From positions 23,229,744-23,293,743 of the forward strand of contig OX637393.1 in NCBI GenBank assembly GCA_951799425.1: a stretch of DNA of 64,000 bases, read 5' to 3'. This document shows positions 6,238-59,830 of the stretch, piece after piece. Position 1 is the first letter of the stretch; the number at the start of each line of letters is the position of its first letter. A model generated the notes under the pieces. It saw only the letters and a list, made by a program, of their open reading frames with translations. It had not been told where the DNA came from and made no database searches. Position numbers and translations under genes: made by a program. Source of the stretch: Ilex aquifolium (taxonomy: Eukaryota; Streptophyta; Magnoliopsida; Aquifoliales; Aquifoliaceae).

Positions 6238-6384
6238 CATTCCGGAAGGTTTTTGTCGACCTTCCGGAAGGTTTTGCCCACTGGAAAAATTCCTTCCGGA
6301 AGGTTTTGGTCGACCTTCCGGAAGGTTTTGCCAGCTGGAAAAGTTCTTCTGGAAGGTTTTCACCGACCTTCCGGAAGGTTTTGC
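6238..6384. repeat. cluster of six CTTCCGGAAGG palindromes
   Basis: Six near-identical palindromes (full form ACCTTCCGGAAGGT) have CCGG centres at 6242, 6264, 6296, 6318, 6349 (mutated to CTGG) and 6371. Spacing alternates about 22 and 32 bp, giving three units of about 53 bp with two palindromes each. The cluster lies inside the Del/Tekay LTR and precedes a minus-strand TATA-like site. Confidence 0.9.
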
Positions 6385-7913
6385 TTGTTTTCCTACGATT
6401 CATTCCTCCTTCAATTCTAATCCATTCCAAACTCATTCAAAACCATCCCAACACATGTATAATGAAGTTTTTCATATAAGACATGGTTCATAAGTTCTAT
6501 TACAATCATTTCCAAATATTTACATGCCCCAAAATCAAGTTTTCATAATAATTTTACAAAACTCAAAATAAAGCCACATCTCGGCTTTTCCTCCTCCTTA
6601 AGGGCCCGAATGAGAGCCGTCCACCGGCGTATGTCCCGCACCTGAAATGTTTTTCCCTATAGGGTGATCCACGCTCAATAGGGTATCTCTTAAAGAAGCT
6701 ACTCCCTAACCTAAGTGCATATGAAATGTCTAATGCAATTTCAACAAGCAACATACATTCCAAACAAGAATATGCAATTCAATGTTGGAATTCTACCATG
6801 CCATGCTATGAAATGAGATGAGACTCACTCATGCATTTTAACCCAAGCCCTCACTGGCTCCCATAACACAATGCAATGCCAATGTGTGATAAATCCGCCA
6901 TTGATGAATTATATCCAATGATCATTTTGAAATAAAAGTCATGTGTTTATAGAACCAAATTATTGTTGGATGTTGCACATCGAATGACTATTTTATAGAA
7001 CAAAATCATGTGTCTTTGTTGGGTATCGAATTTTGGAATCACACCGCCGGTTCCGTACACCATTACACTTTTCCAGAATTTCACCTCAGGGGAGTGTATG
7101 AACCAAGTAGTCGAGTCTTACACCCGAGGGAGAATCTAGCACTGATTGCTATACCCGATACAAGTTTTTCATGCAACCATGCGACTTAGTCGAACCATCG
7201 GCCCAACTATCCCGAGCCCACTTATCAACCACCAAGAATGGTGTTTGATCAACCATGCACACACACTCACACTCATGCATCATGCCCATGAATGTGATGC
7301 CTCCGTACAATGCAATGTAATGAGCAATTGCAACATCAATATCATATCCATATGTAATGAATGTCATATGGATTATTTCTACCACATTTCAATACATACC
7401 ATGAACAATTACATCCTAAGCATATAATCTCCATAAATCATCACAATGTCAATATATCACAAGCACATATCAACATTTACATTTCCAATTGTAATTCACA
7501 TCATAAGCATATGATTTCAATTTACCACATCATCCAAGCATGTTATTTCAATTTCATCAAAACAATAACTTCAATCATTCAAGACAATTTATCAAACACC
7601 TTCAAGGCACCACTCATGTAAACTCTACCTCTTGAAGCGTAAACACGAGTTGTAGAACACATCAAGAACACCACCCAAGCTCTACCTTGATTTTCCCAAA
7701 TTTTTGTTTTTCAAACCCTCGGTGAAAGCCTTCGTTTTTGGTATGGCTCTGTAGTCATCGACGAGGAGATGAACTTTAACTCTTGGCTTGAGTCGATTGG
7801 AGCGACGTAGCGGCGTAGATCGTAGAGAGAAGGTAGAGCTTTCCTCTCCTCTTTTCTCTCTCTTTTCTCACGTGAAGAAGGCTGAACAATGGGGAGAAAT
7901 CAGATTTTCTCCC

Positions 7914-7926
7914 CCTATTTATACTC
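7914..7926 (-). promoter_or_regulatory. candidate TATA box of the Del/Tekay LTR
   Basis: The minus strand reads GAGTATAAATAGGGGG. The equivalent site in the other LTR is at about 1612-1626. Both are followed by the same C/T-rich tract, which would form the transcript start region. Assignment rests on the motif only. Confidence 0.55.
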
Positions 7927-8318
7927 TTTAATTGCTTGGTCCACAACGCGCCACACGGTCTCATTTCCTTGGTCCATTTTCGCTCTAAAACGATTAAATT
8001 TCGCTCTGGTTCAAGTTCAAAATATTTTTTTATTTCAACTTACTTTAAATTATTTTCCAACTTTCAAAATTTTATTTAAAATTTCATTTTTGGGTCACCT
8101 GAGGCCCGATCACCTCGTAAAACGCGAAAAATCCAACTATCTCGGAATTCGACAAAATTTTACAGGGTAACTAGATTTCGCGAGACGAATCCAACGGTGA
8201 GGTCCTTTTCATCATCCGAGCTCTAGAAAATTTCAGATTTGCAACCCATACCGTAGTGACAAATTACCGTTTTGCCCTTTTTCTAAAAATTTCAAATTTA
8301 CCCGGATTTTACAAAATT

Positions 8319-9860
8319 TGTGTGCGTGCAAAAGTGCTCCCCAGGCGTAGAGAGACTTGCAATTTTCGTGTTTTCCTTGGAATGGGTATTCCAAGGTCGT
8401 CTCCTCAGGGAAGGAAGATTGAATTGTGGTGAAGGTAATTTTGTAAAGTAATGAAAAGTGTAAATTCTTGTAATTGTGTGTTTTGGTGAGTAGAGTTTTT
8501 GATAAAAGTACGATGAAAATAAGGTTGGCTAATCCGAAGAGGTCATTCCAATGGGAATGTCAAATCAACTCAAAACATTCTACCAATTGTGTCTCTGTAC
8601 TTGATTATTCGTAGGAAATGGGGGACTAATGTGGAGGTGTAGGCTCAAGCATACCCCGTGACAAGTCTACAATGTATCAAGAGCTCATAACCACGTTCGC
8701 ACTCAACCTAGTCAAACCAAACACCTTACACTACGAGAAAGAATGACGGAGAGTTGATTAAGCATACCCAAGAGGAAATCTCCCTTGGATTAGCCAACTA
8801 AAAACTTAGCTATCCATAGTCAAAGTAAAAATATTCATAATGCAAAGAGACATGATGAAGAAATGAAACATGGAACTTGTATTAATGCAAGGGAAGAGTT
8901 AAACTACAAGAGAAAATGCATTCATAGTCAAAATACAAAGATTGGAAACCAATACCCAAATGTAAAACTTGAAATGCTAGGAAATGTAGTTAAACTTGAA
9001 TACACTTGAAATAAAGGAGATTAAAGTGCAAGAAGTAAAGATTACAAGTGATTTAAAGCTTACTACAACTGAAATAGAGAAGAAAATGCAAAAAACCTAA
9101 CTTTCTCTCTCTAGAACTTCATCTTCTTCCTTGGGACCTTCTCTCTCTAAAAGCTTGTGTAGCTGAATAATAATGAAAGAATGCTTCATTTTCCTCCATC
9201 ACCCCCCTAGGGTCTGTGTGAGCTGACTTCCCAGCATGGGAAAGGGGTTGGACACTTACACAGGCAAGGACAGGTCATGCCTGCAACCCCACCATGCTTC
9301 CATCTTTCTCTCTCTTCCTCTTACATGCTCTTTCTTTCAAAATCAGATTCTAGGTCTAGGGAGGCATGCTTGTATGTAGAATATGTCAAGGGATGTGTGG
9401 GAGAAGAAGAGGTGGGCCCACGAAGCAGTTGGAGTTGAGATTGCAGCTTTCTGGCATTTCTGGGCAAAGGCTACCGGTAGAACGTCATCAAAACCTACTG
9501 GTAGGTTTTTTCTAGTAGGCAAAACCTACTAGTAGGTTTTGGCAGGGGTAGCAATAGAAGATTTCCAATTTACAAAACCTACCGGAGGAACGTCACAAAA
9601 CCTACCGGTAGGTTTTCACCTGTTTTGACTTTTTCTTAATTTCTTGATATCCTGAGCCATCCGTTAAGCCTCCACTCCTTCTTCATTGTCTTTAAGCACT
9701 TGATAGAAGGCTTAATACGTGTCATTACTCACTCATTACCGACAATCACACAAAACTCCATTAATTGATAGATTAAATGCAATTTCCCCCATTTTTCCAC
9801 AAAAGCAAGTATAAAATGGGTGCAAAGAGACAAATGATGTGCAATATCCTACACTCATCA
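8319..9860 (-). mobile_element. Athila-type gypsy LTR (solo or remnant)
   Basis: In sense (minus) it starts TGATGAGTGTAGGATATTGC at 9860. Its downstream two thirds align with 52756-53760 on the other strand, where the same sequence is followed by an Athila primer site and gag. Conserved stretches include the segment with TTGGCTAATCC and the one with GACTTGTCACGGGGTATGC. No polypurine tract precedes the 9860 end, so it is probably a solo LTR or 5' LTR rather than a 3' LTR. The Del/Tekay element begins 6 bp from its other end, apparently inserted just after the LTR's CACACA-rich end, so the true boundary and target duplication cannot be checked here. Confidence 0.75.
9471..9616. repeat. paired CCTACCGGTAGG palindromes in the Athila LTR
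   Basis: It contains two perfect 20-bp palindromes, AAAACCTACTAGTAGGTTTT (9521-9540) and AAAACCTACCGGTAGGTTTT (9597-9616), plus four shorter or imperfect versions. They form about three pairs with centres roughly 18-23 bp apart. The cluster is 240-390 bp into the LTR in sense orientation, in the U3 promoter region. Confidence 0.9.
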
Positions 9861-11480
9861 ATTACAAGAAAAGTAAAATTACTCGGGTGCAAGAAATAAG
9901 TATAAGATAGGTTGATTGTGTGCAGAGTTTGTGTGTTTGATCGTGGATCCTTTCTTAGTGACCTAGCCTTTGCTATTTATAAAGATGTCCTTCAATTGTT
10001 GACCCATCTTTTCCAACCATTGTGTGGACGTACATTGAACCGACGAATTGGTGGCTCATGATGTCACGTTTTCTCATTTTCTGGGCCTGCAAGAGTCATA
10101 TTTCTCTAATTGTTCTATCAATCATGGACTCTCACAAACTCCTTTATGATTTTTGGATCCCTTACACGTGTTTCCCTTTGATCTTGTTATTTTTGGGTGT
10201 AAACAAATTCTATCACTACTTAAAAATCAAATCAACCCCTGCAATAGAAACTAAATTGCAAGACCTTTAACCCCAAGTCGAACAATTGGAACAAACCCAT
10301 AACATTGGACACTTATCCAAAACAACTAAATAGCAAAAACCCAGATCCAAAATCACTGTTCAGCATCAAATCCTTCAAGCACGAAACACAATCCATCAAG
10401 AAGAACCCTAGAAAATGGTCCAAAAAATATGTGGTAAAACTCAAGAACAGAGCATAAAATCTTTGGTAAATATAAGTGACCAGAATGTGCATGTAGGTAT
10501 GGTTCTAGGGGTCAACTGGGCATAATATATTCTCAAAATTTGTGGGTTGCATGGAAATGCTCTCCCTCCAATTTTCCTTTCTCTCATACTTTCCTTTAAT
10601 ACCAAACAATGGAAAATCTTTCCATCCACCCAAACTTTCTTTCCACCATTTTTCATCCACCCAACTTTCCTTCAAATCAAATAGGGCATTGCTCTGTCAA
10701 GGTGGAAACTACGGGTTTGAACTTCATCTGCCCAGAGAGGTTCAGGTACGATTCTTAAAAGGAGAAAATATAAAATGGGACAATTTTTTTCAGTTTATTT
10801 CTCCAACTTTCCCTCTCTTGTTTCCAATATTTTTCTCAATTATTATAGATGACGACACATTCTAATTGTATTAAATGATTTCAAAATCTAGTCTTCCATT
10901 CTTTTAAAAGTAATTGCAGTAGTACATACTAGAGTTTCTATAGTTTCAATCATTATTTTCGTGCAAAATATAATTTCTTTACATTTTTCTTGTTCATAAA
11001 TTTCCTTTAGATGCTTCCTTCTCATGTGATTACCCAATTTTTCCTTTTTTTAAATTTTTTTCTTCTCTTATCTTGGGCCTAAAATTGTGGTGAGCACTAG
11101 TCCAATCCCTTTGCATGACCTTAAGATTAGTTATCTCTATCAGGATGAAAATGCCTAGTCGGCCATCATGGGGCCATCATTACAAGGAAAAACGAAGGCT
11201 TCGCAGTAGTGGGGGATTAGTATTTTCTTTGTTTCATGGAAAATCTAATCATTATGACTCATCTTCAAATTTCCTTCAAAATTTCGTTGGTTAGTTTGAA
11301 TTTAAGCCGTCTTTTTACATCTTCTTGGAGAGGTACATATAAATGTACCAAAAAAAAACTAGTTTTTCAAATTTTTATCTCTCCAATGCTTCCCTTATGA
11401 GATTGTTACTATAATTTTTTCTTTTTTCCTGGGCAAATATACCATGGGAGGTGAAGGGGGTTTAGAATGTCTGATCATGA
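9861..11480. other. no recognisable gene
   Basis: This is AT-rich non-coding sequence. A minus-strand TATA-like motif (CTTTATAAATAGC, about 9973-9986) suggests a further LTR fragment. A short stretch at 10685-10746 reads as a possible exon (NYGFELHLPREVQ followed by GTACG), but no family could be named and no partner exon was found. T-rich tracts dominate 10950-11430. Confidence 0.4.
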
Positions 11481-13597: not shown

Positions 13598-14857
13598 TGA
13601 CTTGATCCGAAATGTGTACACCCAAGTGCAGGCGGTCAAGCTGTAGTAATAATCCGGTTTGAGTTCGGAGTCGAATCCACAGGGAGCTTTTGTTGGTGTT
13701 TTGAGATAAGCAGTGGTGGAGACCTAATGATTGTAACCCTTGAGATTTGAAGTTGTGTGATGTACGAGATTTCCTGGACAGAATATAAGATTCTTTCCAA
13801 GAGAATTTTCTAAGCAAAATGTTGGATAAGTTCTAAAAAAGTCACTCTTTAGTTCAAGGATATGGACATGTAGTTAATTATCCGGTTTGTTATACTTGTG
13901 CTTAATAACTCAATTAACCCCCATGTCAACAGCAGGTTAATCGGAAGATAAAGGTGGGTTAGGAGAATTAAGGACATGATTCCGATGTCTTTCTAGAAGT
14001 TTACAAGAATTGTCTGTGCCGAAACTTAACCCGTCTACAAACAAGCAAGTGCTTCTACAAGACATCCAATCATGACATCAATATCCCATTTCCATTCTTT
14101 AACTGAAACACAATAATAGGGAAGATTGAAGGGTAGTCATGAAGATCTAGCTGGGGTACTTGCCTTGAACTCATGAACCTTTCTATGCAAGAGTCATCTG
14201 TGTCATAGAAGGGACCCATGGTTATACAAAGTACCTTAGCTTTGCTAGATGCAATCAATCATCCAATAAGTAAGGGGAATATTCAATATTAAGCATAAGA
14301 ACAATGCACAAATATAACTTCCGGATAATTTATACATGCCCTTCACCTCTTACTAAAGAGTGAATGAGAAACTACTCACTCTTCATGACTTTGGTAAAGC
14401 TAGAAAAGTGAGTGATGCTCATCCCTCCAAGTAGAGGACTTAGAAAATAAAATACACTAAACAAGGAGCCGATCTTCAACGAAGAATGAGTGAATCACGT
14501 TCCACCCTTCATGGCTTTGGTAAAGCTCTAGAAAAGTGAAAGAGTTTCACTCCTCTAAGAAAGAAGAAAGCTCAAGCAATGGAAGTGAAAGATATGAAAC
14601 ACAAATTAAAAGTAGAAGAAAAGTAGTCACTTTTGGAGGGTGATCCACAACCAAAAGTAATCTATCTTTCTTCTAGACATGAAATTAAAAGAGGCAAACT
14701 ACAATAAAAGAAGACAATACTTCAATTAAAAGAGAGCAACAATATAATAAAGCAACAAAGAAAGAAATTACTTTTGGAGGGTTTTCCACAACCAAAAGTT
14801 CTCTCCAAGAAAATGATACAAATAAAAAAGTGATGCCCTTTACAAGACCCAAGGGGT

Positions 14858-14872
14858 GGGTATTTATAGGCA
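14858..14872 (-). promoter_or_regulatory. TATA box of solo LTR A
   Basis: The minus strand reads GCCTATAAATACCC. The same box with the same flanks occurs in the two related LTRs near 55457 and 59921, which supports it as the core promoter. Confidence 0.65.
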
Positions 14873-14888
14873 ACCAAAAAAATAGTCT

Positions 14889-15074
14889 TTACAAACTTCA
14901 AGGGATAACATTTACAAATCCCAAAGATGCCATTCACAAGCCCAAGGGATGACATTCACAAGCTTCCAAAAGTTGTCATACAAGCTTCCAAAAGTTGTCA
15001 TTCACAAGCTTCCAAAAGTTGTCATTCACAAACTTCCAAAAGTTGTCATTCACAAACTTCCAAAAGATGGCATT
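14889..15074. repeat. tandem repeats of about 24 bp upstream of the LTR A TATA box
   Basis: Seven units of the form ACAAGCTTCCAAAAGTTGTC plus ATTC are arranged head to tail. The central four are nearly identical and the outer ones diverge (CCCAAGGGATGACATTC). They occupy the place where related LTRs have paired GTTCGAAC palindromes. Confidence 0.85.
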
Positions 15075-15325
15075 TGGATTACTTTAATCTCTCTTTGTTT
15101 AGAGCTTTAATAATTGTCATCCTAGAATTTGTAGCTTTGTCACAATTGGCTCCCCGGTAGTTTGTAGTTTTGACGCATAAAACCCTGAAAAGAACAACAA
15201 TTAATGCATTATCCCTAATTCACACACTAACCCTAATAAGGCTTATTTTGACTAGTTTAACTTTATTTAACTAACACAATTGTCTTATTCACTTAATTAA
15301 ATTATGCACTAACTAGGTCTAATCA

Positions 15326-15330
15326 TGAGG
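15326..15330. repeat. target-site duplication TGAGG (right)
   Basis: Partner of 13593-13597. Confidence 0.9.
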
Positions 15331-17637: not shown

Positions 17638-19339
17638 TGTAACACCCCAAATACCACCCTGGACGGCATTACATTCTAAAACATTCACATCATGAGAGCA
17701 CTAAATATATATCCATCAAATAAGAAACATTCTTAATTTTAACAAAATTTGGGCAGAGTCTCCTTTGTACAGGAAGCTCCACCCAAGAATCACAACCTGT
17801 GCAATTCTATTAACTTGACCACACAGGGTTCATTTAACCATCCAATAACAATAAAATTTATATTTACCATCTATACTATCCTTAACATTATCCCAAAAGA
17901 ATAGACCAGATATGGCAATTACATTCCCCAAAAGAATTACATGAATATATCGCAGCGGAGTTTCAAAAGAATCTAGACTTTACATTGTTCAGAAATAAAT
18001 CCCCTAGTCTAGAGCAAAATAAGCTATATCTCTAGATGTCCCATTCGGGATCTAGGTACCCCTCCAAGGAAGCTTCCCCAAGGCCCGGCTCATTCACACC
18101 GAGCTCTTCCTCTAAAGCCAAATCTGAAAAATATTAATTGTAGGGGATGAGCACGAAGCTCTGTAGCAAAATCTTCTCAAACTCAAACAAGGTTTATAAA
18201 AACATATAAAATGGCCGGTCTCATTTTACAAATAGCATACATAATCTTTGAAGTAAAACAGGGACATTTTAAAATGGATCTCAAGTTTAAGTAGCAACAG
18301 TAATTTACATAAACAGTAAAAGAAACCAAGATCCAATACATATCCATTTTCCAAAATCTAAACCATTTTCCCACAAGACCTTGTGGAATCCCATACTCCC
18401 ACAAGTCCTTGTAGGAAACCATTTTTCACAATAATACAACAATCCATCAATATGTATATGTATCTCAAACATGATGTAAGGCAAACCCCATGAATCGACA
18501 CATTGAGTAATATCTAACCCACACACACCCACACAAATCTTATCAAATATATCCATCCTTTAGGAAGGGCGTATGTCACACCAATGGCAGTGACGTATCC
18601 AACCCAGGTATTAGTATACTAACTCTTTTACACGGCACCCGTGAGCAATAGCGGTTTAGTCTTACCAAAGCACTAACCCCACTACGAGTGGTAGGAGAAA
18701 TGCCAACCCTCACGGAGCAAGCAACACGTCTACCCACTCTACGATATCTCGTCAAAGGCCACCCATGGTCATCCCACACTCATAAGAGATACAATACCAA
18801 ACCCAATTTCACAATTTACAAGAATATCTTAAAAATCCCCAATTTAAGCATGTGACATTTTCAATAACCAACTAAGAAAATGCAAGAGATCACAACAATA
18901 TCATTTTATTACTCCACACAAAACACTATGGTTTCGAAATCAAGAATAAAGGAAGAGTTCAAGAGGAAAACCCATCACTCTTGAAAACTAGGGTTTTTCA
19001 AACCAAAAAGAGATTTCATGGGTATTCAACCCTAACTTTGTGTAAAACATGTTAACAATTGCAAAAGAACCAAGAAACAATGGAGCCATAGCAAATACAT
19101 ATCATTAAGAATCAAAACATACATATTTATTAACCCTAACATCAATGTAAGAAAAAGAGAAGAAATCCCCTACCTTATGCTCTTGAAGAAACCTAGGGTT
19201 TGAGTCTTGGATCACTTGTGAACCCTTTGTCTTTCCTTTTGATCTTGAGTTTTATCTTTCTCTCTTTCTCTCTAAGGGTTTCTAGGAGGGTTAGGGTAAG
19301 AGGGAGATGAAAAAATGGGGCAAATGGGATGTGGGATGG

Positions 19340-19348
19340 GTTTTATAA
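19340..19348 (-). promoter_or_regulatory. candidate TATA box of the solo LTR
   Basis: The minus strand reads TGTTATAAAACCC, about 50 bp downstream in sense of the GTACCGGTAC cluster. Motif evidence only. Confidence 0.45.
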
Positions 19349-19394
19349 CACAAAAATCCCGACTTTTTAACTGTTTAGCGGCGTCAGACGGATC

Positions 19395-19487
19395 GTACCG
19401 GTACCCAGTACCGGTACTCAGTACCGGTACCCCAAGCCTTCTGGAGTCGAAGTACCGGTACACAGTACCGGTACTCAGTACCGGTAC
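19395..19487. repeat. six GTACCGGTAC palindromes in two triplets, 13-bp period
   Basis: Perfect 10-bp palindromes start at 19395, 19408 and 19421 and again at 19452, 19465 and 19478. Within each triplet the period is exactly 13 bp, with a 3-nt spacer (mostly NCA). The triplets are 57 bp apart. The regularity and sequence identity exceed anything else in this otherwise diverged LTR. Confidence 0.95.
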
Positions 19488-19986
19488 ACTTTGTCTGCTG
19501 CAACTTCCAGGGCAGTTTTGACCCATTTAGATGTTGAATTGGAAAATTTTCATGAGACACACTTTTGTAGCCCTAGATGTCTACTATCTACTGTAAAAAT
19601 ATCAGATCAATTGGACTTAAGGATAAAAAGTTATGGCCAAAACACTAAGTAGTGTCCAGGACCCATTTTACCCAAATTCTCTCTAAAGTGTGTTTTAACT
19701 CCGGGACACTTCCTAACTTCTAATACATCTCTATTACCTCTCTCAATGTTTTTCGACCTTCCGGATTCAATGGAAGCATTATTTTGACCTAAAAACCTTT
19801 AGAAACTTGTCTATTCACCCTTTCCAAGTTTAAACATCTTCGACACGTAAACTTCCCCATCAAATTATCTCCATAGTATTTATTCCTACGGTTTATTCTT
19901 ATGTCACTGCATATATCCACATTTTTAAAACAATTATTTACTATATATTTATATACATATATAAAAGAAAAATGCGGGGTGTTACA

Positions 19987-19991
19987 AATTC
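19987..19991. repeat. target-site duplication AATTC (right)
   Basis: Partner of 17633-17637. Confidence 0.92.
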
Positions 19992-22053: not shown

Positions 22054-24709
22054 CTAAAACCTTTTACGACATATCACACATTTTAAAAGATCCACTTCAA
22101 ACTTTATTATAACATAGTAGAAGTTAAAAAAAAATACAAATCTACAGATTTTTAGTGACGATGAAGCTCTATTGTTTGTGAATGGACATTTCTGACAATT
22201 GTGACCCGTTTTGCCATACAACCCACAATGTATGTGATTATGACCCTCAGGTGGGAAGTTCATCTCATTGCGTATGCGGAGGTCTTTGGATGACCAATCA
22301 AGTCTCACCGTTGGTCGCGATCAGGGACTAACTTGGGACATTCAGGATTATCCCAATAATCTTCATACTCAAGAGGAAACATTTCGCGCGCCCATGTGTT
22401 CTCTAAATAACTGATGTTGTAAACGGTATTTATAAAATCTTGAAAACCAACTTGGGAAAAAGAGCATACAACCAATACATGCGAGCAAGGAATTCTATAT
22501 ATTGTCCATTTTTCGCATGTGCATGAATGATCAACAAGACAAACAACTTGCTTATTACCACCTCCCGTCACCAAATCTGTACCAAACCCATTTTTTTCCA
22601 TTTTACCGCCTCATCTCGACGTCCATAATGATACTTAGTCACCCGATAAAAGATCGATTGCACACAAGCATTAATGGGAAAAAAACCTTGTACCTTGAAG
22701 AACACTATTAAAAACCTCAGAAATGTTGGTCGTCATTATGTCATATTGTCATCCACTGTCATAGGCTACTGTCCATTGCTGCACTGGTATCCTATTCAAG
22801 TACTCACTTGCCCCTTCATGTGCAGCGCTTATCTGCGTCATCATCGACTCAAACTTTAGTACCTGTCGCTTTTTACCATCTCTCCACATTAGATCGTACA
22901 AGTGGGCATCCTTGAACTTGGAATTAAATTTATTGCACACGTGCCTACGACAAAAGCGATGATAAGCACGTGGCGAATACCAACCAGAATCTTCCATATT
23001 TACCACCAAAATTATTCCCTTGTACATATCGAAAATCAAATATATCCCTTCCCGAACCCTCACGAAAAATTGCCTAAGGTAATATAGGAAAAAAGCCCAA
23101 CTATCACGATTCTCCTCTTCGACGATAGCAAATGCAATGGGGTTTAGTTGCTTATTAGCATCAAATACCGTCGCAAGTAATAGCATCCCCTTCTACTTGC
23201 CCCGGAGGAAGATCCCATCAATACTAATAACGGGTTGGCAACGTGCAAACCCATAAATGCTCACTTTGAATGCCCAGAATACTTAGGAAAACACATTTTG
23301 CCCATCAGATTCAAAGGCGTATCGCCACTTCACAATCAAGCCAGGGTTATACTTATTTATGACGCCCATAGATTTTGGCAACATGTCATACGACGAGTCT
23401 CAATCATAAAAAATTATGACAATGGTCTTGTTCCTTGCAATCTAGGCCTTCTTATAGGAGATATCATACTCAAACTTATCCTTTATATGTTTTTGAATAG
23501 CTGACATTTTCAATTGCAGGGTATCACGAACAAGACCCTGTATACTATGAGATATAAAGTCCGAATCAAGCTTCCTGTGGTCACGACTCATTCGAGGGTA
23601 GAAATAGGTATGAGGTCCATCATATTTCATGATCTAAAATATATTTGGTTTTCTCCTAAAACAAGTACGTAGTTTCCACTTGTAGTTAGACTACAAATAC
23701 ATCTTGCATTGTACGACCCAAACTGTTGTCTTGGCCTCCACCACCACATAATCCTGATTCATCTTGATGGAATACCATTGTACTGCTCAAAACAACGCAA
23801 CTTTATCCCTGAAAACCATACCTTTCACCAACTCCATCTTTGTCAGATCCCACAAATTCAATTCAGTAAACGATGCTAATCTATTGGCTTCAGAATAATC
23901 ACCAAATTCAATGTTTGTGAAGACAAGGGAGTAAGGGTCATGCATATAAACCTCGTCACCAGCCTTATTGGGTTAACTAAATCCATCATCATCATTCGAG
24001 TCATGAAGCAATAATTCTTCATACTCTTCTTCTTCTTCATTTGAGACATCTTTGTGATCATTCGCGCATATTTCTTTATATTTCCAGATTGGCCTCTGTT
24101 GCATAAGTGATTGGTGGACATCATCTACTTCACTCAAATCAATCCCCTCTTCACCCATTTGAAAAATCTGACTCATTGGGGTAGAATATCCACCATAGGT
24201 ACCAGGTCTATAATGTGGGTGGGTAGAGTTATAGTGGCAATACTCTTCCATTAACTAAATCCCCGCGGGGGTAAACATTCACCTATCACTTTGGAAGTTG
24301 GAATTATCGAGGAACCTATCTCTTGTCTTAGCAAATCAGTGTAAGACATTCTACTAGTGGTTAGACACCCCCTGGTCTGACTCCCGCCTACGAATGCATT
24401 GATGTCCTCCGTCTCCACATACAAAGCAACACTAGGCATGGTGTGGTTGTCGACTACCACATCAAACATAGCACCCACAAGTTTATTGTTCCCACTTTTT
24501 AGTTTGACATATATACTTGTGTTTGGTCCAATTGTTACGGGATATCTACATATCAATCTCAACTTGTGATGCAACTTGTCCAATCCCATTACAGTATAAA
24601 TCTTACTTAACAACTCCGAGAGTTTTGTGCCCCGGTTTATAACAATTTCTCCTTTAGGAGGGGAATCGTAATATAACCCCTTCGATCCATATTGCATTTC
24701 CCGCCCCAA
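22054..24709 (-). pseudogene. MuDR/FAR1-class MULE transposase, broken
   Basis: Pieces in order on the minus strand: an N-terminal region (24251-24709, 152 residues, GTKLSELLSKIYTVMGLDKL); an acidic linker (23970-24250, NEEEEEYEELL); the MuDR DNA-binding-type block (about 23440-23760, KYDGPHTYFYPRMSRDHRKL); the catalytic domain (22749-23250, QPVISIDGIFL with the first Asp, then VFDANKQLNPIAFAIVEEEN, LIFDMYKG with the second Asp, and YHRFCRRHVCNKFN); a SWIM zinc finger (CTCEKWTIYRIPCSH, 22500-22540); and a final zinc knuckle, CGLYGKTGHNCQKC, in which Tyr replaces the second Cys. A stop follows the first Asp motif (GK then TAG), and frames shift between pieces. Terminal inverted repeats were not located. 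It is non-functional but recently enough broken to be read throughout. Confidence 0.9.
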
Positions 24710-29730: not shown

Positions 29731-29745
29731 TCCCTATTTATAAAT
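29731..29745 (-). promoter_or_regulatory. TATA box of the nested copia-like LTR
   Basis: The minus strand reads TTTATAAATAGGGAG. The GCTCAAGC/GCTTGAGC cluster lies about 140-200 bp upstream in sense. Confidence 0.55.
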
Positions 29746-29874: not shown

Positions 29875-29940
29875 TGACTGCTCAAGCGACCATGAGCCCC
29901 GCTTGAGCGACCATGAAGAACCGCTCGAGTGAGCTCTGTA
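29875..29940. repeat. spaced GCTCAAGC / GCTTGAGC / GCTCGAGTGAGC palindromes
   Basis: GCTCAAGC at 29880, GCTTGAGC at 29901 and GCTCGAGTGAGC at 29923 share the trailing GACCATGA and are 21-22 bp apart. The arrangement parallels the clusters in the gypsy LTRs, with a different core. Confidence 0.75.
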
Positions 29941-29996: not shown

Positions 29997-30001
29997 CTAG
30001 C
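29997..30001. repeat. target-site duplication CTAGC (left)
   Basis: CTAGC at 29997-30001 and 32211-32215 flanks the nested gypsy element exactly. Confidence 0.93.
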
Positions 30002-30140
30002 TGATAGGAATCGGATTATATTTCGTTATAGTAGGCATAGACGTAGTGATTAGGAGTTATTTGTCATTTCTTTTCAGGGACTTAGTTGTCATTTTGACTA
30101 TTTATTTCTTTTAAGGTTCTTTTGGGATTTGTGCTCTCCC

Positions 30141-30166
30141 TATATATATATATATATATATATATA
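30141..30166. repeat. (TA)13 microsatellite in the LTR
   Basis: A TA dinucleotide run inside the 5' LTR. It is missing from the truncated 3' LTR. Confidence 0.9.
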
Positions 30167-30335
30167 GGGGATATAGTATTTGTTTTGGTAGACTTTGATT
30201 ATTGATTATTGATATTGAATCCTGATATTGCTTATTTCTCAAATTCTCTTAGTTTTCATCCCTTTCTTCTTCTTTTCTCATCCCCTTCTTCTTCCCTTCT
30301 CATCCCTAATTCTTTCATATTACGATCTACATCAA

Positions 30336-30352
30336 TTTGGTATCAGAACCCA
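30336..30352 (+). other. primer-binding site of the nested gypsy element
   Basis: TTGGTATCAGAACC directly follows the LTR end CATCA, complementary to the initiator tRNA-Met 3' end with small differences. Confidence 0.8.
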
Positions 30353-30379
30353 ACTTCGATTCGCACAAAAAAAAAAAAA

Positions 30380-36770: not shown

Positions 36771-38898
36771 CTTTGAACAGGTTCAACCCCAATCAGAACC
36801 CTATTCAACTGGTTGAACACATGTTTGAACCGACTCAACTTTAAACCGAGGCTTAAAATACAATTCAAACCCTCTCTTTCACCATCAAAACTCAATTCTA
36901 TTTCCACCCAACCATTACCCACACTACAAGGATACATCTAACAGTTGAAAAACACATAAATTTACAAGAATTCGTTTACCTCTGTTGCGGCTTGATTCCT
37001 TCCAACTCCTCTGAACTCACACTCAAGAACCTAGGGTTTCTTAACTCCTCAATTCACAACCTCCATTCAATTCCTTGTGCACAAGCAAGGATTATGCTAA
37101 CTACAAAGAAGAAATTATATACAAACTCAAGGAAACAAGAAGTTCTTTCCCACCTTTGTTTTCAGTAAAAGAGGTTTAAGGTTTGTTTCAAAACCCTTCC
37201 TCCCCAATTCTCCTCTTCTTCAACTGGTTTATGCCAAAAGGCCCTCTTTAATACCTACCGAGCACAAAGGCTGGAGAAACCCCATGAAGCCGGGTGTCCC
37301 TATTGACTCATCACATTTTTCCTCTATTCACACTAAGTTCCCCCTTTGTTTCTTTTATTCTTACATTTAACACACAAATTTTCCCGTCACTTCCAAAATT
37401 TCATCTAAACACTCTACTACCTTGTAATTCAACAATAAAATTCTTTAATTAAAAGCATACCCAACTTCTCAGGGTTTATTTATCAAAATTTTAACCCCAT
37501 ACAAATATTATCAAATTACACTTTAACCCACTTTATTTATAAAATGGTATGATATGCATGTGTGAGTCTCACAATAAATTTTTAGGAAGGGCGTATCACC
37601 GTAAACAAATAGTGGTTTTGTCCTCACAAGACACCAACTCCACTATGGGTGATAGGAAACCTTCAAACCGCTCAAGGTAACAAAAATATCTAAATACTCT
37701 GCGATATAAATTCGAGTGCAATTAACTTTAATCGCACCCACCCATAGAGATAATTTTCACAACCTTTCCATAAAATTCAACTAAAATCAAAAATCATGGT
37801 TCAATTCAAGAAAACATGTAAGAGATCCCCAAGAAATATCTTTGAACTTATAGTAATCAAGAATTAGGGTTTTTGAAATCAAGAACATGGAACTAGTGAT
37901 GTAAAACATGTGTAGGCTAGGTTATAAATCAAGAATTAGGGTTTTTCAATCTAGAACTGATAAATCTTAGAAGCAAAACATATATTTTGTTCAAGAAACA
38001 GACTATGGATTCAAACAAATGTAAAAACATTGTGGATCAATTATTTATGTCATAATAAAGATGAAAATAATATAAATATATATCCATAATCTCAATGGAT
38101 GAGTTTGAGAAGGAAATCCTACCTTGATCCATAGAAAATTACTCCTAAAGTGTTTTGTGCGATTGCTTACACATTGATGTCCTCAAGAGCAAGCCCAATT
38201 TATTCCTCTTCCTCTTCTTCTTCTCTCCAAGACTCTCCCAGACTTCTTGGGGATGTAAAACATGTATAGGAACCGTAAAATAAGTCCATATGGTATTTAT
38301 AGTGTCAAAATAGGAGAAAACACTCAAAATATGTCAAGGACTGACAAATTCTCTACATCATGCATCCGGGCATGTGTTTTGTCCCATCGAGACACGAGTG
38401 ACTTTTTGGCCAGATTTCTGGTTTGATTTTGACCTAGTTAGAAGCCGATTCACGAAATTTGTGTGAAATACACTTTTGTAGCCCTTGCAGTCTAGTTTCT
38501 ACTCTAGAAAATCAGCTAAACTGGACATCGGGGTAAAAAGTTATAGCCAAAATACGAAGGTAGTATCAAATTCCTTCTACCCAAATTCTCTCCAAAATAG
38601 GTTTTAACTCCGCAATATTTCTAAACTTCTAATACATCCCATATTACCTCTCCCAAAGTTTTTGGACCTCTCAGATTCAATGGTAATATTATTTTTACCT
38701 AAAAACAATTAGAAACTTGTCTAACCACGCTTCCAAAGCTTAAACACTTCTGAAACTAAATTTAATATGAAAATCAATACGCAGGAAATCCAGACTTCAT
38801 GATCAATCTTTCAACAACGATTCAAAGTTTCTATCATTCTTATGGAATTACTCTTAATATCATTTTATCCATCTTAAAATTTTGTATGGGTTCTTACA
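36771..38898 (-). mobile_element. Del/Tekay-like LTR with diverged left part
   Basis: From 37585 rightward it clearly matches the solo LTR at 17638-19986 (TTTAGGAAGGGCGTAT, ACACTTTTGTAGCCCT, CCAAATTCTCTC). In sense it starts TGTAAGAACCC at 38898. Upstream of that start is CAAGGGGATAAAT (minus), a polypurine tract, so this is a 3' LTR. A TATA box is at 38290-38300. Left of 37560 the homology fades. GTTCAA/TTGAAC words recur at 36760-36835, possibly a diverged palindrome cluster. The left end is approximate. Confidence 0.65.
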
Positions 38899-46531: not shown

Positions 46532-47473
46532 GTTAGTTCTCAACATGGCACTGAAAGATTATGTCTGCATATTTTGGCTTTATGGTTGTGTCTGGCTTCA
46601 ATAGGGGGTCTTACCAATGTGACATATTTGTGTTTATAAATTTTGTAAACTATAATCAGCTTGGCCACCTAGCACATATACTTATTAGTGATAAGTCTCA
46701 GGTATATGAGGTAAGTCTGTTGTGTTCATGTCTGTCTAATGGTGACCAATTTTTCTCCCATCGGTTTGTTCATCTTGAGAATCCAATCTTAAGGAAGTAC
46801 ACAAAGATTATAAAATCATTGAGTCATTGTAATGCTCAAGATTCATTCTTCATTTCTATTACAGATTAAAAATGCCATGATTAATTTGATCCATTATCCT
46901 GTGATAATATCCTTGTTATTTATTTTTTGTGCTGAAGAAGAAATAATAAAATAAAAAATCTCTTCACCACATAATTGTCTTAATATGGAAAATCCAAACT
47001 GGTTTCAAGCCTAAGCAGATCCTTCTCAATCCCAAGATTTTATGAATTCGTGATTACAGTTTGAAATGTTACTACGCCAACATGTTCAGTGTTTTACTTG
47101 TTATGTTATTTTGAATGGACAGGACTCGATGGGTTAATATACCTTTCAAAACTTCAAGGGTTAATCACCTATGAAGACCAGTATAATGGCCATTGCCATT
47201 TTTGAAATTGTGACTCTATTCATTCTTGTCATAATTACAATTTCATCCTATTCTATTTTATGGCCTATGATTCTTTTTAAATGGATATAGACTTCTCTAA
47301 ATTTTCGTGGGGTTGAAGCAAACATTTCTACAATACAAACCAAGAAAATATATTTTGGCTGATTAGTGGTTAGACAACATGCCATACCTTGATGAATGCA
47401 GGCTGGTTCATAGCCATCAATGAATTCAACGATGAATTCAACAAGAACTTTAACATACTTTCAAATGCTGCAG
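46532..47473 (+). other. intron 4 of the O-fucosyltransferase-family gene
   Basis: 942 bp, starting GTTAGTTC and ending GCAG. Its segment 47247-47387 is also found at 52215-52330 downstream of the gene. Confidence 0.8.
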
Positions 47474-48050
47474 GAACTTTGAGGAAATATATGATGTCGA
47501 GAAATTTATAAGAAGCTTGGATGGCATAATTGAAGTAGCTAGGGATCACCCTGCCCTAGTATCAAGTGAGAAGCTCCCTGTTGTGAGGGTCCCTAACAGG
47601 GTTTTTGAAACTTACATTGCTACAAAGGTTGAACCATTGTTCAGAAGTAAAGGGAACTTGAGACTTGAAATTTACTACCCTTCTTTAACAATGATAAAGG
47701 GAAAAGAGACTAAGTACATGGATCCATATTCATGCTTGGCAATGTTTGAGATTCTGCAGTTGCAACCAAGGTTGCAGCAAGTGGTTAACTCAATGATTTG
47801 GAGGCTAAAAACTTTGAACCAGAAGTCAAATGGTCAGTATATTGCAGTGGATTTGAGGGTTGAGATGCTGGAAAAGAAATGTAAAGGGAATGAAGCTAGA
47901 GGAAGAAAAAGATGTTACAATGCTCAGGAGATTGGTGAATTTCTGAAGAAGGTTGATTTTCAAAAAAACACCACAATTTATTTGACGGAGTCTCGATGGC
48001 ATACTAGCCTTGATGCGCTAAGAGATATCTACCCCAACACATATACAAAG
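47474..48050 (+). CDS. O-fucosyltransferase-family gene, exon 5 (main domain)
   Basis: This 577-bp exon is open throughout. It starts NFEEIYDVEKFIRSLDGIIE and continues with LPVVRVPNRVFETYIA, EPLFRSKGNLRLEIYYPSLT, SCLAMFEILQLQPRLQQVVN, QYIAVDLRVEMLEKK, CYNAQEIGEFLKKVDF and TTIYLTESRWHTSLDALRDI, ending TYTK before GTAAGGGC. IAVDLRVEML corresponds to the conserved DLRxE segment of plant O-fucosyltransferase-like proteins, where the basic and acidic residues line the nucleotide-sugar site. By memory the order and spacing match MSR proteins closely. No stop or frameshift was found, so purifying selection is likely. Together exons 2-6 give 383 residues plus exon 1; the family is usually about 420. 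Confidence 0.93.
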
Positions 48051-48606
48051 GTAAGGGCTTTGGTTTTCTTCAAATGAAATAATCAATCCCATTTGCTTCC
48101 TTAGGTATAGATCTTTTTTCGCGTGTACCTTTTCATTCTGGTATAATCTGAAGACATCTAAATATATACCATCCTGTATAAAGCATCAACTGCATTAGGG
48201 ACTCAGTTTACAAGTTCTTAATTTTCAATTTTAGCGTGAATGTTTATCATAGCATTTGAAACAATTCTCAGTCTCTAAAGGTTTTCGAAGAATTCATATT
48301 GAAAAGGGTTGAAGCGCCATAAATAGGATCAAAATCAGGGATTCAGGTTCAATTTTTTTAGTTTTTTCCAACGCATCATGACAACATTATGCATTTTCGG
48401 GGGTGAACCATTGTACGATCTTGCATAAGAAATTTTCTCAAACAAAGTTTACCAAGGACGAATCTCTATCCTCATTATAGTGTAATATGTTTTAGATTGT
48501 GCCCTTCCATTTCTTGGTAGTGTGTCAAACCCACGTACTAAGGGAAAAAATATGCATTGTCAGCATTGACCCACTAATAATGTCTAAACAAATAAGAAAA
48601 CAAGAA

Positions 48607-52214: not shown

Positions 52215-52330
52215 TCCTATGCTATTTTATGGCCTATGATTCTTTTTAAATGGATATAGACTTCTCTAAATTTTCGTGGGGTTGAAAAACCAAGAAAATA
52301 TATTTTGGCTGATTAGTGGTTAGATAACAT
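52215..52330 (+). repeat. second copy of a host-gene intron 4 segment
   Basis: It nearly matches 47247-47387 (ATGGCCTATGATTCTTTTTA, GGATATAGACTTCTCTAAAT, ATATTTTGGCTGATTAGTGG), with a 27-bp gap where intron 4 has AGCAAACATTTCTACAATAC. It is immediately followed by a retrotransposon RNase H fragment. Confidence 0.9.
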
Positions 52331-52338
52331 GGCCTATA

Positions 52339-52755
52339 TTATTCCACAACAGAAAAGGAATTGCTTGCTATAGTATTTGCTTTAATAAATTCAGGTCATA
52401 TTTAGTTGGATCATCAGTTGTTGTGTTTACTAATCATATAGCTTTGAAGTATCTGCTCACGAAAAAGAATGCTAAGTCACGTCTCCTCCAATGGATACTG
52501 TTACTTTAAGAATTTAATCTTATTATCAAAGATAAGAAGAGAGTTGAAAATGTTGTAGCTAATCATCTGTCAAGGCTGAATTATGATACAAAAGAGGAGC
52601 TAGTATCGATCAAAGAAACTTTTTCAGATGTGCAATTTTTTGCAATAATTGAGGTACCATGGTATGCAGATATAGCCAACTACTTGGCCATAGATACCAT
52701 TCTTTTTCACTATACCTTGACCAATAAATAGAAATTTTTAAGAGAGGAACGCAAT
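52339..52755 (+). pseudogene. Athila-type RNase H fragment
   Basis: It encodes YSTTEKELLAIVFAL, (frameshift) NKFRSYLVGSSVVVFTNHIA, LKYLLTKKNAKSRLLQWILL, (stop) EFNLIIKDKKRVENVVANHL and SRLNYDTKEEL, then IEVPWYADIANYLA. The order and the VENVVADHLSRL-like motif are typical of Athila/Tat RNase H followed by the pre-integrase spacer. The canonical Asp of the YTDHAALKYL motif is Asn here. It is truncated on both sides and fused to mid-LTR sequence. Confidence 0.85.
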
Positions 52756-53898
52756 TTCTTACACCTAAAGTCTGATTTTGGAAGAGAAAGCATGAGAGAG
52801 GTATGAGAGAGAAGAATGGTGGTTGGTGAAGGCATTGGAGGTGCATGCTTGGCTTGTCCTTGCTTGTTGAAGTGTCTAATCCCTTCCCACTCATTGGAAC
52901 TCAATTCTCACAGACCATGGAAGAAGGATGGATGAATTTGGACGAAGCAATTCACCATAATTCAGTTTTACACAAGCTTTTAGAGAGAGAAGCTCCAAGG
53001 AAGAAGATAAAATTTTAGAGAGAGAAAGTTGCTTTATTTTACTTGTAATTTTCACATCTTACACTTTAATCTCATCTATTTCAAGTTGTAACCAAGTCTA
53101 GCTTAATGTTCATGTATTTCCATTTCTACACTTGGGTTTTCTCTTCAAGCTTTGTTTTTGGGTATTAATGACCTTGTTCTTGTAGTCTAAACTTTTCCTT
53201 GCATCAATACAAGTCTTATGCTTTATTTCACTACCATGTCTCATTACATTATGCTTGTTCTTGTTTTGACTATGAGTAGCTAGACTTTTAGTTGGCTAAT
53301 CCAAGAGGAATTTCCTCTTGGGTATGTGAAATCGACTCTCGTTCATTCTTCCTCGTAGTGTAAAGTGGTTTGGTTTGACTAGGTTGAGTGCGGACGTGGT
53401 TGTGGGCTCTTGATACATTGTAGACTTGTCACGGGGTATGCTTGTGCCTAACACATCCACATTAGTCCCTCACTTCCTATGAATTAATCAAACACCGAGA
53501 CACCATTGGTTGAATGAATTGAGTCGATTTTGCATTGCCATTAGAATGACCTCTTTGGATTAGCCAACCTTGTTTTCTTGCATTTTTATCAAAACACCAC
53601 TCACCAAAACACAATTCAAAAGATTTTCTCATTTTCATTTCTTTACAAATCACCCTTCACAACAATTTGACCTACCTTCCCTGAGGAGACGACCTTGGAA
53701 TACTCAATGCTAAGTAAAACATGACATTGCAAGTCTCTCTTCGCTTGAGGAGCAATTTTGCACACACACATGTTTTTCACACGATTTTACCCATTTCTAG
53801 CATCGAACCCGAGGGAGAGTGACACTCACCTATTCGTATAAGCCATATGCACACAACCGGGATCATGTTTAGAGATTAGGGAAAACGATTCAAGCATT
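52756..53898 (+). mobile_element. Athila-type LTR, 5'-truncated, with leader
   Basis: It aligns, on the opposite strand, with 8319-9350 (CTAAAGTCTGATTTTGGAAG against CTAGAATCTGATTTTGAAAG; also AGCTTTTAGAGAGAGAAG and TTGACTAGGTTGAGTGCG). The first part of the LTR, with the palindrome cluster, is missing: RNase H sequence joins directly to the middle of the LTR. The true LTR end may be near 53765, with the rest leader. Confidence 0.8.
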
Positions 53899-54357: not shown

Positions 54358-55456
54358 TGACTTGATCCGAAATGGGTACACCCAAGTGCAAGCGGTCAAG
54401 TTGTAGTTATAATCCGGTTAAGTCCGGAGTCAAATCCATTGGGAATTAATGTTGGTGTTTCGAAGTAAATAGTGACAGAGACCAAAGTGACTGAAACCCT
54501 TGAGATTTGAAGTTATGATGTTTATGGAATTTCCTAGACAGAATATAAGATTCTCTCCAAAGGATTTTTCTAGACAAAATATAATATTCTCTCAAATGTA
54601 AAAGTCACTCTTTAGCTCGAGGATCTGAACATGTAGTTAATCATCCAGTTGTTATATTTGTGCTTGAGAACTTAATTAACCCCTGTATTAACATCAAGTT
54701 AATTGGAGGATAAAGATAGACTGTGAGAATTAAGAGCATGGTTCTGATGTCTTTGTAGAGATTTACAAGAATTGTCTGTGTCGGGACTCAACCCGTCTAC
54801 AACAAGCAAGTAATTCTACAAGTTATCCAACCACTGTGTTAGTTTTCCATTCTTAGTTGAAACATAATAATTGTGAAGATTGAAATGTAGTCACAAAGAT
54901 CTAGCTGGAGTACTTGCAAAGGACCAATGAATCCTCCTATGCCAAGAGTCATCTTGTCTTAGAAAGGACTCATGGTTGTACAAAGTACCTTAACTTTGCT
55001 AGATGCATTCAATCATTCAATAAGCAATCAAAAGATAAAGCATTAAGTATAAATGAAATGCACAAATATAACTTCCAAATGATTTACACATGTCCATCAC
55101 CTCTTACTAAAGAGTGGATGAGAAATTACTCACCCTTCATGGCTTTGAGAAAGCTAGAAAATTGAGTGATTCTCATCCCTCCAAGTAGAGGAGTTACAAG
55201 GTAAAATAAACTACACAATGAGCCTATCTTCAACGAAGAATAAGTGAATTACTTTCCACCCTTCAAGGCTAGAAGAGAGCTAGAAAGGTAGAAGAGTTTC
55301 ACTCCTCTAAGTGAAGAAGGAAGCTTTTACAATGGAAGCTAATGAAACTAATAATGAAAGTAGAAGAAAACTAGTTACTTTTGGAGGGTTTCTTCCTCTT
55401 CCAAAAGATCTCTATCTCTCTCTATCTCTCCCCCCTATACAAGTCCAAAGAGGAGG

Positions 55457-55470
55457 TATTTATAGGCAAG
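55457..55470 (-). promoter_or_regulatory. TATA box of LTR B
   Basis: The minus strand reads TTGCCTATAAATACC, the same as in LTRs A and C. Confidence 0.6.
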
Positions 55471-55566
55471 GAGGAGGGGGTAAAAAAGAGTAAAAGAATA
55501 GTGCTAGGTGCTCAAAGTCCAAGTGAATGCCCCAAGATCCGGATGGAAAATCAACCACTTTACATA

Positions 55567-55925
55567 CTGTCTGGGGAATACGTTTGAACATGGGATGGCG
55601 TTTGAACGTTGACTCCTGTCTTCTGTGATGGGCATTTGAACCCTGACTGGAGTTTGAACGTAATACTCAAGTGGCTTTTGTCTTCCACAGTGAAGAGCTG
55701 CAACTTGCCACGTGTCATCACCCTAGCACTCTTTTGGGGTCCTCAAAAAATTCAAGATAGCGTTCGAACGTAGATTGGCGTTCGAATGTTGTACTCATGT
55801 AGCTCTTTGTTCTTCTTCTCAAGAAATAGCTGCAACACGCCACATGCCATCACCCTAGCACTGTCCTAGGGTCCTCAAATAATTCAAGATATCATTTGAA
55901 CGTGGATTGGCGTTCGAACGTGGAT
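55567..55925. repeat. four pairs of GTTYGAAC palindromes in LTR B
   Basis: The pairs are ACGTTTGAACATGG/GCGTTTGAACGTTG (55577), GCATTTGAACCC/GAGTTTGAACGT (55632), GCGTTCGAACGTAG/GCGTTCGAATGTTG (55758) and TCATTTGAACGTGG/GCGTTCGAACGTGG (55893). Members of each pair lie about 19-21 bp apart, with a GATTGGC-like linker. They lie 100-470 bp upstream (in sense) of the TATA box. Confidence 0.9.
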
Positions 55926-56078
55926 GCCTTGCTTCAAACTTCTCCAATTTTCTTCCAGAACACGTGGGTGTTCCATGAAAATTTGATATTTATTGACTTT
56001 AGGCCCATGTACACTCTTTTTCCCAACATAATTAGTCTTATACAAGCATAGTAACTTGCTAATTTTAACTATTCATCA

Positions 56079-56093
56079 CACCCCCAACCTAAA
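56079..56093 (-). other. polypurine tract of the Tat-like element
   Basis: TTTAGGTTGGGGGTG on the minus strand, adjacent to the 3' LTR start. Confidence 0.75.
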
Positions 56094-59073: not shown

Positions 59074-59235
59074 TCTAAATCAATGAAAAGATAGATCAAT
59101 TATTCAGCAAATTGAAGAGTATTTTCTCTGCGGTTCTTTGAAGAACTATTCGAACTTATCGGGATTTCCCGTGGCGTTCACCAGCAACTTATCAAACGGA
59201 ATTTCCACCATCGTTTGTGGCGTCTTCCTTATACT

Positions 59236-59273
59236 GAGGTTCTTGTTTTCGCAATAAACAACGGGTTGAGGTC
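59236..59273 (+). repeat. duplicated LTR segment beside the insertion (left)
   Basis: GAGGTTCTTGTTTTCGCAAT ... ACGGGTTGAGGTC. Nearly the same sequence stands at 61223-61258, right after the inserted LTR, so the host LTR had a tandem repeat here. Confidence 0.75.
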
Positions 59274-59276
59274 ATA

Positions 59277-59281
59277 TATAC
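59277..59281. repeat. target-site duplication TATAC (left)
   Basis: TATAC at 59277-59281 and 61216-61220 flanks solo LTR C. Confidence 0.9.
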
Positions 59282-59463
59282 TGATTAGAACTTAAATTAG
59301 CATATTACTATGCCGTTTTAAGACTAATTGTACTTTGATGGAGTTTAAGTGATGTCATTTCAGGCCCTAAACTGAACAAGGACCCAAGAACAACAAGTAC
59401 CACACTTGGATGCAACACCAACACATTAGAGCCCAAAATTGGAGAAGCTTGGAGCACAGCCAG

Positions 59464-59830
59464 AACGTTCAAACGCCAACTCACGTTCGAACGTCCACAT
59501 TACACTGTAGCAGACTCAACTGCTAAGAGAAGGCATGTTGCAGTTAGGAAAGAAGACTGAAGCTCTGAAGCACTTGAGTGTCACGTTCGAACGCCAACTC
59601 ACGTTCGAACGTGCACTTGAGTTGATTGAAGACCAGACTACTGCATAGAGTTGGAACTGAACTTCACAGAAGACCAACAGACCACTCGAGTGAAAGGGTC
59701 AGAACACATCTGGCGTCCGAACGCCCTTAGTGCAAAAATAGAAGAAACGTTCGAACGGCAGTCAACGTTCGAACGCCCTTAGTGCAAAAACAGAAATAAC
59801 GTTCGAACGCCAACTCACGTTCGAACGTTC
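59464..59830. repeat. paired ACGTTCGAACGY palindromes in LTR C
   Basis: About nine copies of ACGTTCGAACGT/C, mostly in pairs whose starts are about 18 bp apart and joined by CCAACTC: 59465/59483, 59583/59601, 59746/59764 and 59799/59817, plus a single at about 59713. They end about 90 bp before the TATA box. Confidence 0.93.

Follow-up and report, generated by a model that had tools for sequence, protein, structure and literature searches.

The closest described counterparts of the sequences examined here are found in Sireviruses. In 13 of these elements, palindromic CpG-containing boxes (termed RM) lie in the long terminal repeat (LTR) upstream of the TATA box, and the words differ in most elements; in the portions of that report used here, 12 of the 13 words carry a CGG-CCG signature, many are interrupted, not all are CG-centred, and the motif is given as absent from classic Ty1/copia elements (PMC2829016). 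The palindrome clusters of maize Sireviruses are described, in passages of two papers that cite the original work, as variable, fast-evolving small-RNA hotspots, and an arms-race version of their history is already published there (PMC5311732, PMC10760457). Passages of the second paper add that, in structured regions of maize Helitrons, no motif is commoner than the maize Copia palindrome, and that the cis-regulatory regions of various transposable elements often consist of repeat arrays, at times with palindromic units (PMC10760457). Excerpts from work on two further systems report modular evolution of the unique 3′ (U3) region in the Tnt1 superfamily, based on 453 sequences from three genera (PMC1838419), and binding of HSFA2 to an nTTCnnGAAn element of the ONSEN LTR (PMC3907296). 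Here, we analyzed a window of 64,000 nucleotides from Ilex aquifolium (contig OX637393.1), plant DNA rich in transposable elements with 36.8% GC. An earlier note on this DNA had proposed that unrelated LTR families share a promoter design of clustered short palindromes, each family with its own sequence, perhaps shaped by an arms race with silencing. We found that five LTRs carry an array of CG-centred palindromes upstream of a TATA-like box and that among three related LTRs the U3 has been replaced as a module. Given the Sirevirus literature, the layout and much of the arms-race idea are not new; the CG centre, the Sirevirus precedent and the hairpin potential are points that the note did not contain.

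The window holds 103 perfect palindromes that are 10 bp or longer, TA runs excluded, compared to a shuffled mean of 76.6 and a shuffled maximum of 103. Twenty-four palindromes of this length were centred on CG; the shuffled sequences had 6.3 on average and never more than 13. An enrichment of every kind of palindrome was ruled out, as AT, TA, and GC centres fell within the shuffled range. Twenty-two of the 24 lay inside the six stretches singled out earlier, which together make up 1,178 bp or 1.8% of the window; 21 of these are array words and the remaining one is CACTCGAGTG at 59683. Neighbouring palindromes with the same core no more than 400 bp apart were found 16 times, whereas 200 dinucleotide shuffles had 0.375 on average and at most 2.

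Since the six stretches had been chosen by eye, we added a blind scan for palindromic 10-mers, with pure A/T words excluded, at most one mismatch allowed, and at least three near-copies required per 300 bp. The scan returned five loci, all of them CG-centred: the LTR called Tat C (7 copies), a solo LTR (6), the Tekay LTR (6), Tat B (3), and the Athila LTR (3). GC, AT, and TA centres gave no locus in the window, and ten block shuffles yielded a mean of 0 CG loci and 0.1 to 0.3 loci for each other centre class. Thus, the CG-centred arrays exceed shuffled DNA in this window, and the shared layout was borne out for five of the six stretches, the sixth being no better than chance. A looser scan (8-mers, one mismatch, three per 120 bp) found 6 CG, 9 GC, 8 AT, and 6 TA loci, so that the CG class was not outstanding in number; the array loci still held the highest counts. 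Searching for the four 10-mer cores with at most one mismatch placed 28 of the 29 matches in the window within their own arrays.

The first carrier is a Ty3-type (Del/Tekay-like) element, recognized by an LTR pair (1-2009 and 6504-8311, 92-97% identity), an iMet-type primer-binding site (TGGTATCAGAGC, minus strand, 5920-5931), and an integrase and an RNase H piece, both on the minus strand. The integrase is Ty3-type, with an Integrase_H2C2 domain and a match to the Ty3-G Gag-Pol entry in the PDB (E value of 2.8e-16); for the RNase H piece, a relative in the viral collection was not confirmed. The 5′ LTR (5935-8312, minus strand, outer ends set by eye) carries six boxes of ACCTTCCGGAAGGT at 6237-6379, spaced 22/32/22/31/22 bp and reported by Tandem Repeats Finder (TRF) with a period of 54 bp, and a TATA-like GAGTATAAATTG at 6137-6148. 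This element had inserted into an Athila-like LTR (8313-9867, minus strand), whose start, TGATGAGTGTAGG, was set by eye and whose family name, like that of the Tat-like LTRs below, follows the earlier note. The Athila-like array has five boxes of the ACCTACCGGTAGGT type at 9469-9613, including one exact 14-mer, one TG-centred unit, and one TA-centred unit that forms a perfect 22-bp palindrome at 9520-9541. Its TATA-like candidate, at 9372-9387, is degenerate and weak. Between this putative TATA box and the array lies the perfect palindrome GTGGGCCCAC (9412-9421), which we take to resemble a site for TCP factors. A second Athila-like copy is present, with 8313-9358 homologous to 52760-53776; just upstream of it, at the expected place of the U3, is an RT_RNaseH-like piece (52324-52506), so this copy provides no U3 for comparison.

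The solo LTR (TGTAACACCCC...GGGGTGTTACA, 17639-19988, ends by eye) was placed on the minus strand from its TATA-like box (TGTTATAAAACCC, 19338-19350) and leader. It has the most regular array, with two triplets of GTACCGGTAC at 19394-19488 that are perfect in six of six units, are spaced 13/13/31/13/13 bp, and have a TRF period of 13/26. The remaining arrays are in two Tat-like LTRs with ends set by eye. LTR B (54370-56086, minus strand, TATA-like GCCTATAAATACC at 55455-55467) has seven boxes of the ACGTTCGAACGT type at 55580-55921, with three pairs at 18 bp and TG at four of seven centres; two of its units hold a perfect CGTTCGAACG. LTR C (59283-61205, plus strand, TATA-like box at 59919-59931) has nine such boxes at 59465-59828, with four pairs at 18 bp, two 34-bp gaps, and a TRF period of 52; seven of the nine contain a perfect palindrome, 10 bp or longer, around a CG centre. 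The 12-mer ACGTTCGAACGT given earlier for both LTRs has three exact matches in C and none in B. Similar sequence (GACCTC.ACCCGTTGTTT...) flanks LTR C on both sides by eye, at 59230-59282 and 61206-61260, as if it lay in a local duplication.

Most of the clusters had been placed 50 to 470 bp upstream of a TATA box, and we saw this order in all six, with the TATA-like boxes picked by eye. The nearest unit lies 43 bp from the TATA-like box in the solo LTR, 81 bp in the Athila-like LTR (degenerate box), 88 bp in Tekay, 90 bp in Tat C, 112 bp in Tat B, and 135 bp in the copia-like set described below; the outer array edges reach up to 454 bp, in Tat B and C. We then scored the centres of all 36 units, including the copia-like ones. 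CG was found at 26, TG at 7, CA at 2, and TA at 1, although the units were gathered by their likeness to CG-centred words, which biases the CG share and, to a lesser degree, the excess of TG and CA. Nine of the ten non-CG centres have the pattern of single-step decay products of methylated CpG, and the tenth that of the double product. The observed/expected ratio of CpG in the array with 45 bp on either side, compared to the rest of the LTR, was 1.03 versus 0.42 in the solo LTR, 1.03 versus 0.36 in Tat C, 0.73 versus 0.20 in Tat B, 0.47 versus 0.32 in Athila, and 0.84 versus 0.85 in Tekay; the copia-like array gave 0.78.

The spacing proposed earlier, pairs or triplets at 13 to 23 bp, held with a slight extension to 13 to 24 bp inside groups, and a second distance of 31 to 34 bp separates several groups. 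These group gaps, in the Tekay, Athila, solo, and Tat C arrays, come close to three helical turns, a post hoc observation; Tat B and the copia-like set lack them. That each family has its own sequence was true only in part. The Tekay, Athila, and solo cores are built on CCGG, those of Tat and the copia-like set on TCGA. Tat B and C share one box, and the Tekay and Athila boxes are nearly identical (ACCTWCCGGWAGGT), differing in a single symmetric base pair, with AAAACC/GGTTTT flanks and similar spacing (22 to 24 and 31 to 32 bp). The Tekay and Athila U3 regions align with a score of 28 against a shuffled maximum of 29, and so come close to exceeding their shuffles; the likeness of the boxes could mean either that one factor reads both or that the families have exchanged sequence. 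The claim that the LTRs are not homologous across superfamilies held, by local alignment, for the U3 regions of different families, as Tat B-C was the only one of 21 U3 pairs to score above its shuffles. Further searches gave no match in Rfam at gathering thresholds, no hit of exact patterns in the viral collection, and, with the translated solo array as the protein query for further copies, eight candidates of which none scored. One 16-mer pattern matched 117 bacterial or archaeal stretches (80 titles listed), which we judged to be chance and did not use.

Three Tat-like LTRs allowed us to compare the U3 with the remainder of the LTR. In LTR A (13604-15327, minus strand, ends by eye, TATA-like box at 14859-14871), the U3 has no CG boxes and holds a 24-bp tandem array with AAGCTT at 14919-15074, where B and C have theirs. 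The R-U5 identity is 90.6% for A-C, 82.7% for A-B, and 82.2% for B-C. The U3 of A scored at the shuffled level against both B and C, while the raw B-C score was 66, falling to 42 once the boxes were masked; the corresponding shuffled maxima were 30 and 28. Thus, A and C are closest in R-U5 yet unrelated in U3, and the U3 behaves as a swapped module. We ruled out that A merely keeps decayed CG boxes, as its U3 aligns to neither of the others. The solo LTR has a relative at 38292-38750 (minus strand; 77.7% identity over 38427-38750) with a TATA-like CACTATAAATACC at 38292-38304, in which no GTACCGGTAC box was found at one mismatch or fewer. Both cases lend support to the rapid turnover of cores that had been suggested.

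Two weaker stretches fared less well. The copia-like set consists of three decayed GCTCGAGC boxes (29880-29930, minus strand, one mismatch each, spacing of 21/22 bp) with a TATA-like TTTATAAATAGGG at 29732-29744; since the looser scan gives as many or more loci with GC, AT, and TA centres as with CG, this set is not above chance when taken alone. The CCGG/CCGAT set described in the SIRE LTR gave no palindromic array in any scan. An indel of 21 bp in that stretch distinguishes two SIRE-like LTR copies, and one loose CG 8-mer locus (33617), at noise level, lies elsewhere in the second copy.

Compared to the Sirevirus boxes, the arrays are alike in being clustered, dyad-symmetric CpG words upstream of the LTR TATA box, with words that mostly differ between elements. 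All five arrays have this arrangement, at 43 to 112 bp, with TATA boxes chosen by eye and that of Athila degenerate. Among the 13 Sirevirus words in the part of the report used here, three (CGGTCGACCG, GTCGGACGTCCGAC, and ACAATCGATTGT) are uninterrupted and CG-centred like ours (PMC2829016). The differences are that cores in the window have CCGG or TCGA at the exact centre and lack the CGG-CCG signature, and that Sireviruses are all Ty1/copia while the window has one Ty3-type carrier and others that are Tat- or Athila-like by the naming of the earlier note. The Sirevirus architecture further comprises at least eight copies per element and a CpG island at the array; our arrays have five to nine units, with only Tat C reaching eight (counted per LTR), and the CpG ratios given above. 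Because the signature is lacking and the sole carrier classified by protein is Ty3-type, we do not count the arrays as members of the RM group. Like the maize clusters, they mark a variable cis-region of the LTR that is rich in palindromes and predicted to be strongly structured as RNA; small-RNA data exist for maize, while the window was read from its letters. As in Tnt1, the U3 changes as a module while the rest stays related, and here the conflict between the two is present on three LTRs.

For individual boxes, candidate readers can be named. The Athila box, ACCTACC/GGTAGGT, presumably corresponds to two MYB sites of the Tto1 13-bp or AC-I (L-box) type placed head to head, while the other box types do not fit this site. 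The Tekay box core TTCCGGAA is the only box word in the window that fits nTTCnnGAAn, a fit by letters alone; the ONSEN LTRs, in the part of that report used here, are shown to have no CG or CHG sites (PMC3907296), while the words in the window are CpG-centred. In a narrow literature search, we found no report of such arrays for Ty3 families, although PMC10760457 cites further reports of palindromic cis-arrays; a text search with the letters of the boxes brought up a single paper, on an immunology topic. What appears to be new is the Ty3-type carrier, joined by the Tat- and Athila-like ones if their naming is right, together with the placement of CG at the exact centre, its pattern of decay, and the clear U3 swap.

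We believe, with a probability of roughly 55%, that the arrays are U3 enhancers made of repeated sites for dimeric host DNA-binding proteins. This reading builds on the position, symmetry, CG centre, and repetition of the boxes, on the absence of homology between families, and on the replacement of the Tat U3 module, all of which were observed directly. From these we infer that proteins bind the boxes and activate transcription; that they bind as dimers is plausible. A dimeric host protein would occupy each CG-centred palindrome, a site with two-fold symmetry, and five to nine sites upstream of the LTR TATA box would promote transcription of the element. The central CpG would make the site sensitive to methylation, CG would turn into TG or CA in silenced copies, and boxes of a new type would be at an advantage. 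By analogy with the maize Sirevirus data, hairpins in array transcripts could feed the production of small interfering RNAs (siRNAs) and add pressure for replacement.

Several points weigh against the enhancer reading. The evidence comes from a single window, with about four independent box types and every copy taken from within it. The TATA boxes were picked by eye in AT-rich DNA without a chance control. The strands of the solo and copia-like LTRs depend partly on the TATA box itself, and those outside Tekay, the only element classified by protein, were all assigned from the TATA box, leader, and LTR ends by eye. Choosing units by their likeness to CG-centred words inflates the CG share. No single known factor fits all cores, and the design is not universal, as Tat A, the solo-LTR relative at 38.3 kb, and a short copia LTR (30002-30334) lack such boxes. 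Between Tat B and C, the boxes are barely more conserved than their flanks (81 of 96 aligned positions versus 323 of 426); nine of the 15 box differences are G to A or C to T in the direction from C to B.

The alternative that survives best, although we consider it unlikely, is that RNA structure is the selected property. The U3 of the 3′ LTR is present in every genomic RNA, and its hairpins could serve processing, packaging, dimerization, or siRNA dicing. We folded 150-nt windows on both strands in steps of 75, 1,704 in all. Among places at least 200 bp apart, the three of lowest energy were the solo array, on its inferred sense strand, and the arrays of Tekay and Tat C, both on the antisense strand. 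The fourth place, at 676, has no array, while the copia-like set ranked 11th and Athila 13th of the 14 places listed. On the sense strand, fold z-scores were strong for the solo (−9.0), Tekay (−8.0), and Athila (−6.2) arrays and weaker for Tat C (−4.7 and −2.7 for two parts), Tat B (−2.5 for one part), and the copia-like set (−1.6), with −1.8 for the Tat A array. Palindromes in maize Sirevirus LTRs are reportedly hotspots of small RNA, as Bousios et al. are said to have found in Genome Research in 2016. The same is stated in passages of later papers, which would suit siRNA dicing (PMC5311732, PMC10760457). However, any palindrome array folds in this way by construction, and the fold indicates potential rather than function or independent evidence. 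One of four ordinary LTR stretches reached −2.9 (the others gave −1.2, −0.3, and −0.5), and the Athila place ranked low. Above all, RNA pairing does not need CG over GC at the centre, yet five of five arrays are CG-centred, which makes the CG centre the best argument for a reading at the DNA level.

We find it still harder to credit a neutral origin, in which a chance palindrome was duplicated by slipped-strand or template-switch events and has no function. The regular period of three arrays (54, 13/26, and 52 by TRF) would fit such an origin, as would the 21-bp indel at matching places in the SIRE-like copies and the slight advantage of the B-C boxes over their flanks. Against it, of 43 tandem-repeat ranges that we entered by hand from the TRF table, with microsatellites excluded and overlapping rows merged, only five contain a palindrome of 10 bp or more, and three of the five are box arrays; TRF listed neither the Athila nor the Tat B array. 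The boxes of Tat B and C recur over gaps of 52 to 114 bp, and the nonhomologous U3 regions of all five array LTRs have CG-centred words upstream of a TATA-like box.

Very improbable, in our view, is that an anti-silencing factor recognizes the boxes by their sequence and lets each family reopen its own promoter, the boxes acting like the VANC-bound repeats of VANDAL elements; the CpG at the box centre would suit this, but we know of no LTR family that encodes a VANC-like factor. In the excerpts used here, VANC targets are likewise family-specific short motifs in fast-changing, noncoding tandem repeats (PMC5735166, PMC10398659), but the VANC21 motif, YAGTATTAY, lacks palindromic symmetry, and its arrayed copies all point the same way (PMC5735166).

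Returning to the enhancer reading, we hypothesized a broader form of it, which is tentative and on the doubtful side. CpG-centred arrays might be a general, exchangeable U3 enhancer cassette in both plant LTR superfamilies, with a common geometry (groups 31 to 34 bp apart and a superperiod of about 52 to 57 bp in four box types) and methylation-sensitive dimeric readers. Words would be swapped or reinvented as silencing catches up, and a word would mark a promoter type rather than a lineage. Should the rule of a CG centre and the exchange of modules prove true across the genome, the promoters of plant retrotransposons could be read from sequence. Box words would then predict the activating host factors, the reason why U3 evolves faster than other parts of the LTR, and the places at which silencing has to operate, and the design reported for Sireviruses would extend to Ty3-type elements.

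Other features of the window were seen alongside. The short copia LTR belongs to a small copia-type element at 30002-32210 (ends by eye) with a 5-bp target duplication, CTAGC (29997-30001 and 32211-32215), and a (TA)13 run at the expected place of the TATA box; its 3′ LTR is only a 163-bp R-U5-like part, 94% identical to 30172-30334. MULE transposase pieces with MULE and SWIM domains lie at 22308-23192 on the minus strand. An O-fucosyltransferase-like fragment at 47454-48074 is 94% identical to a protein of Ilex paraguariensis over 93% of its length, the other matches listed being at most 64% identical.

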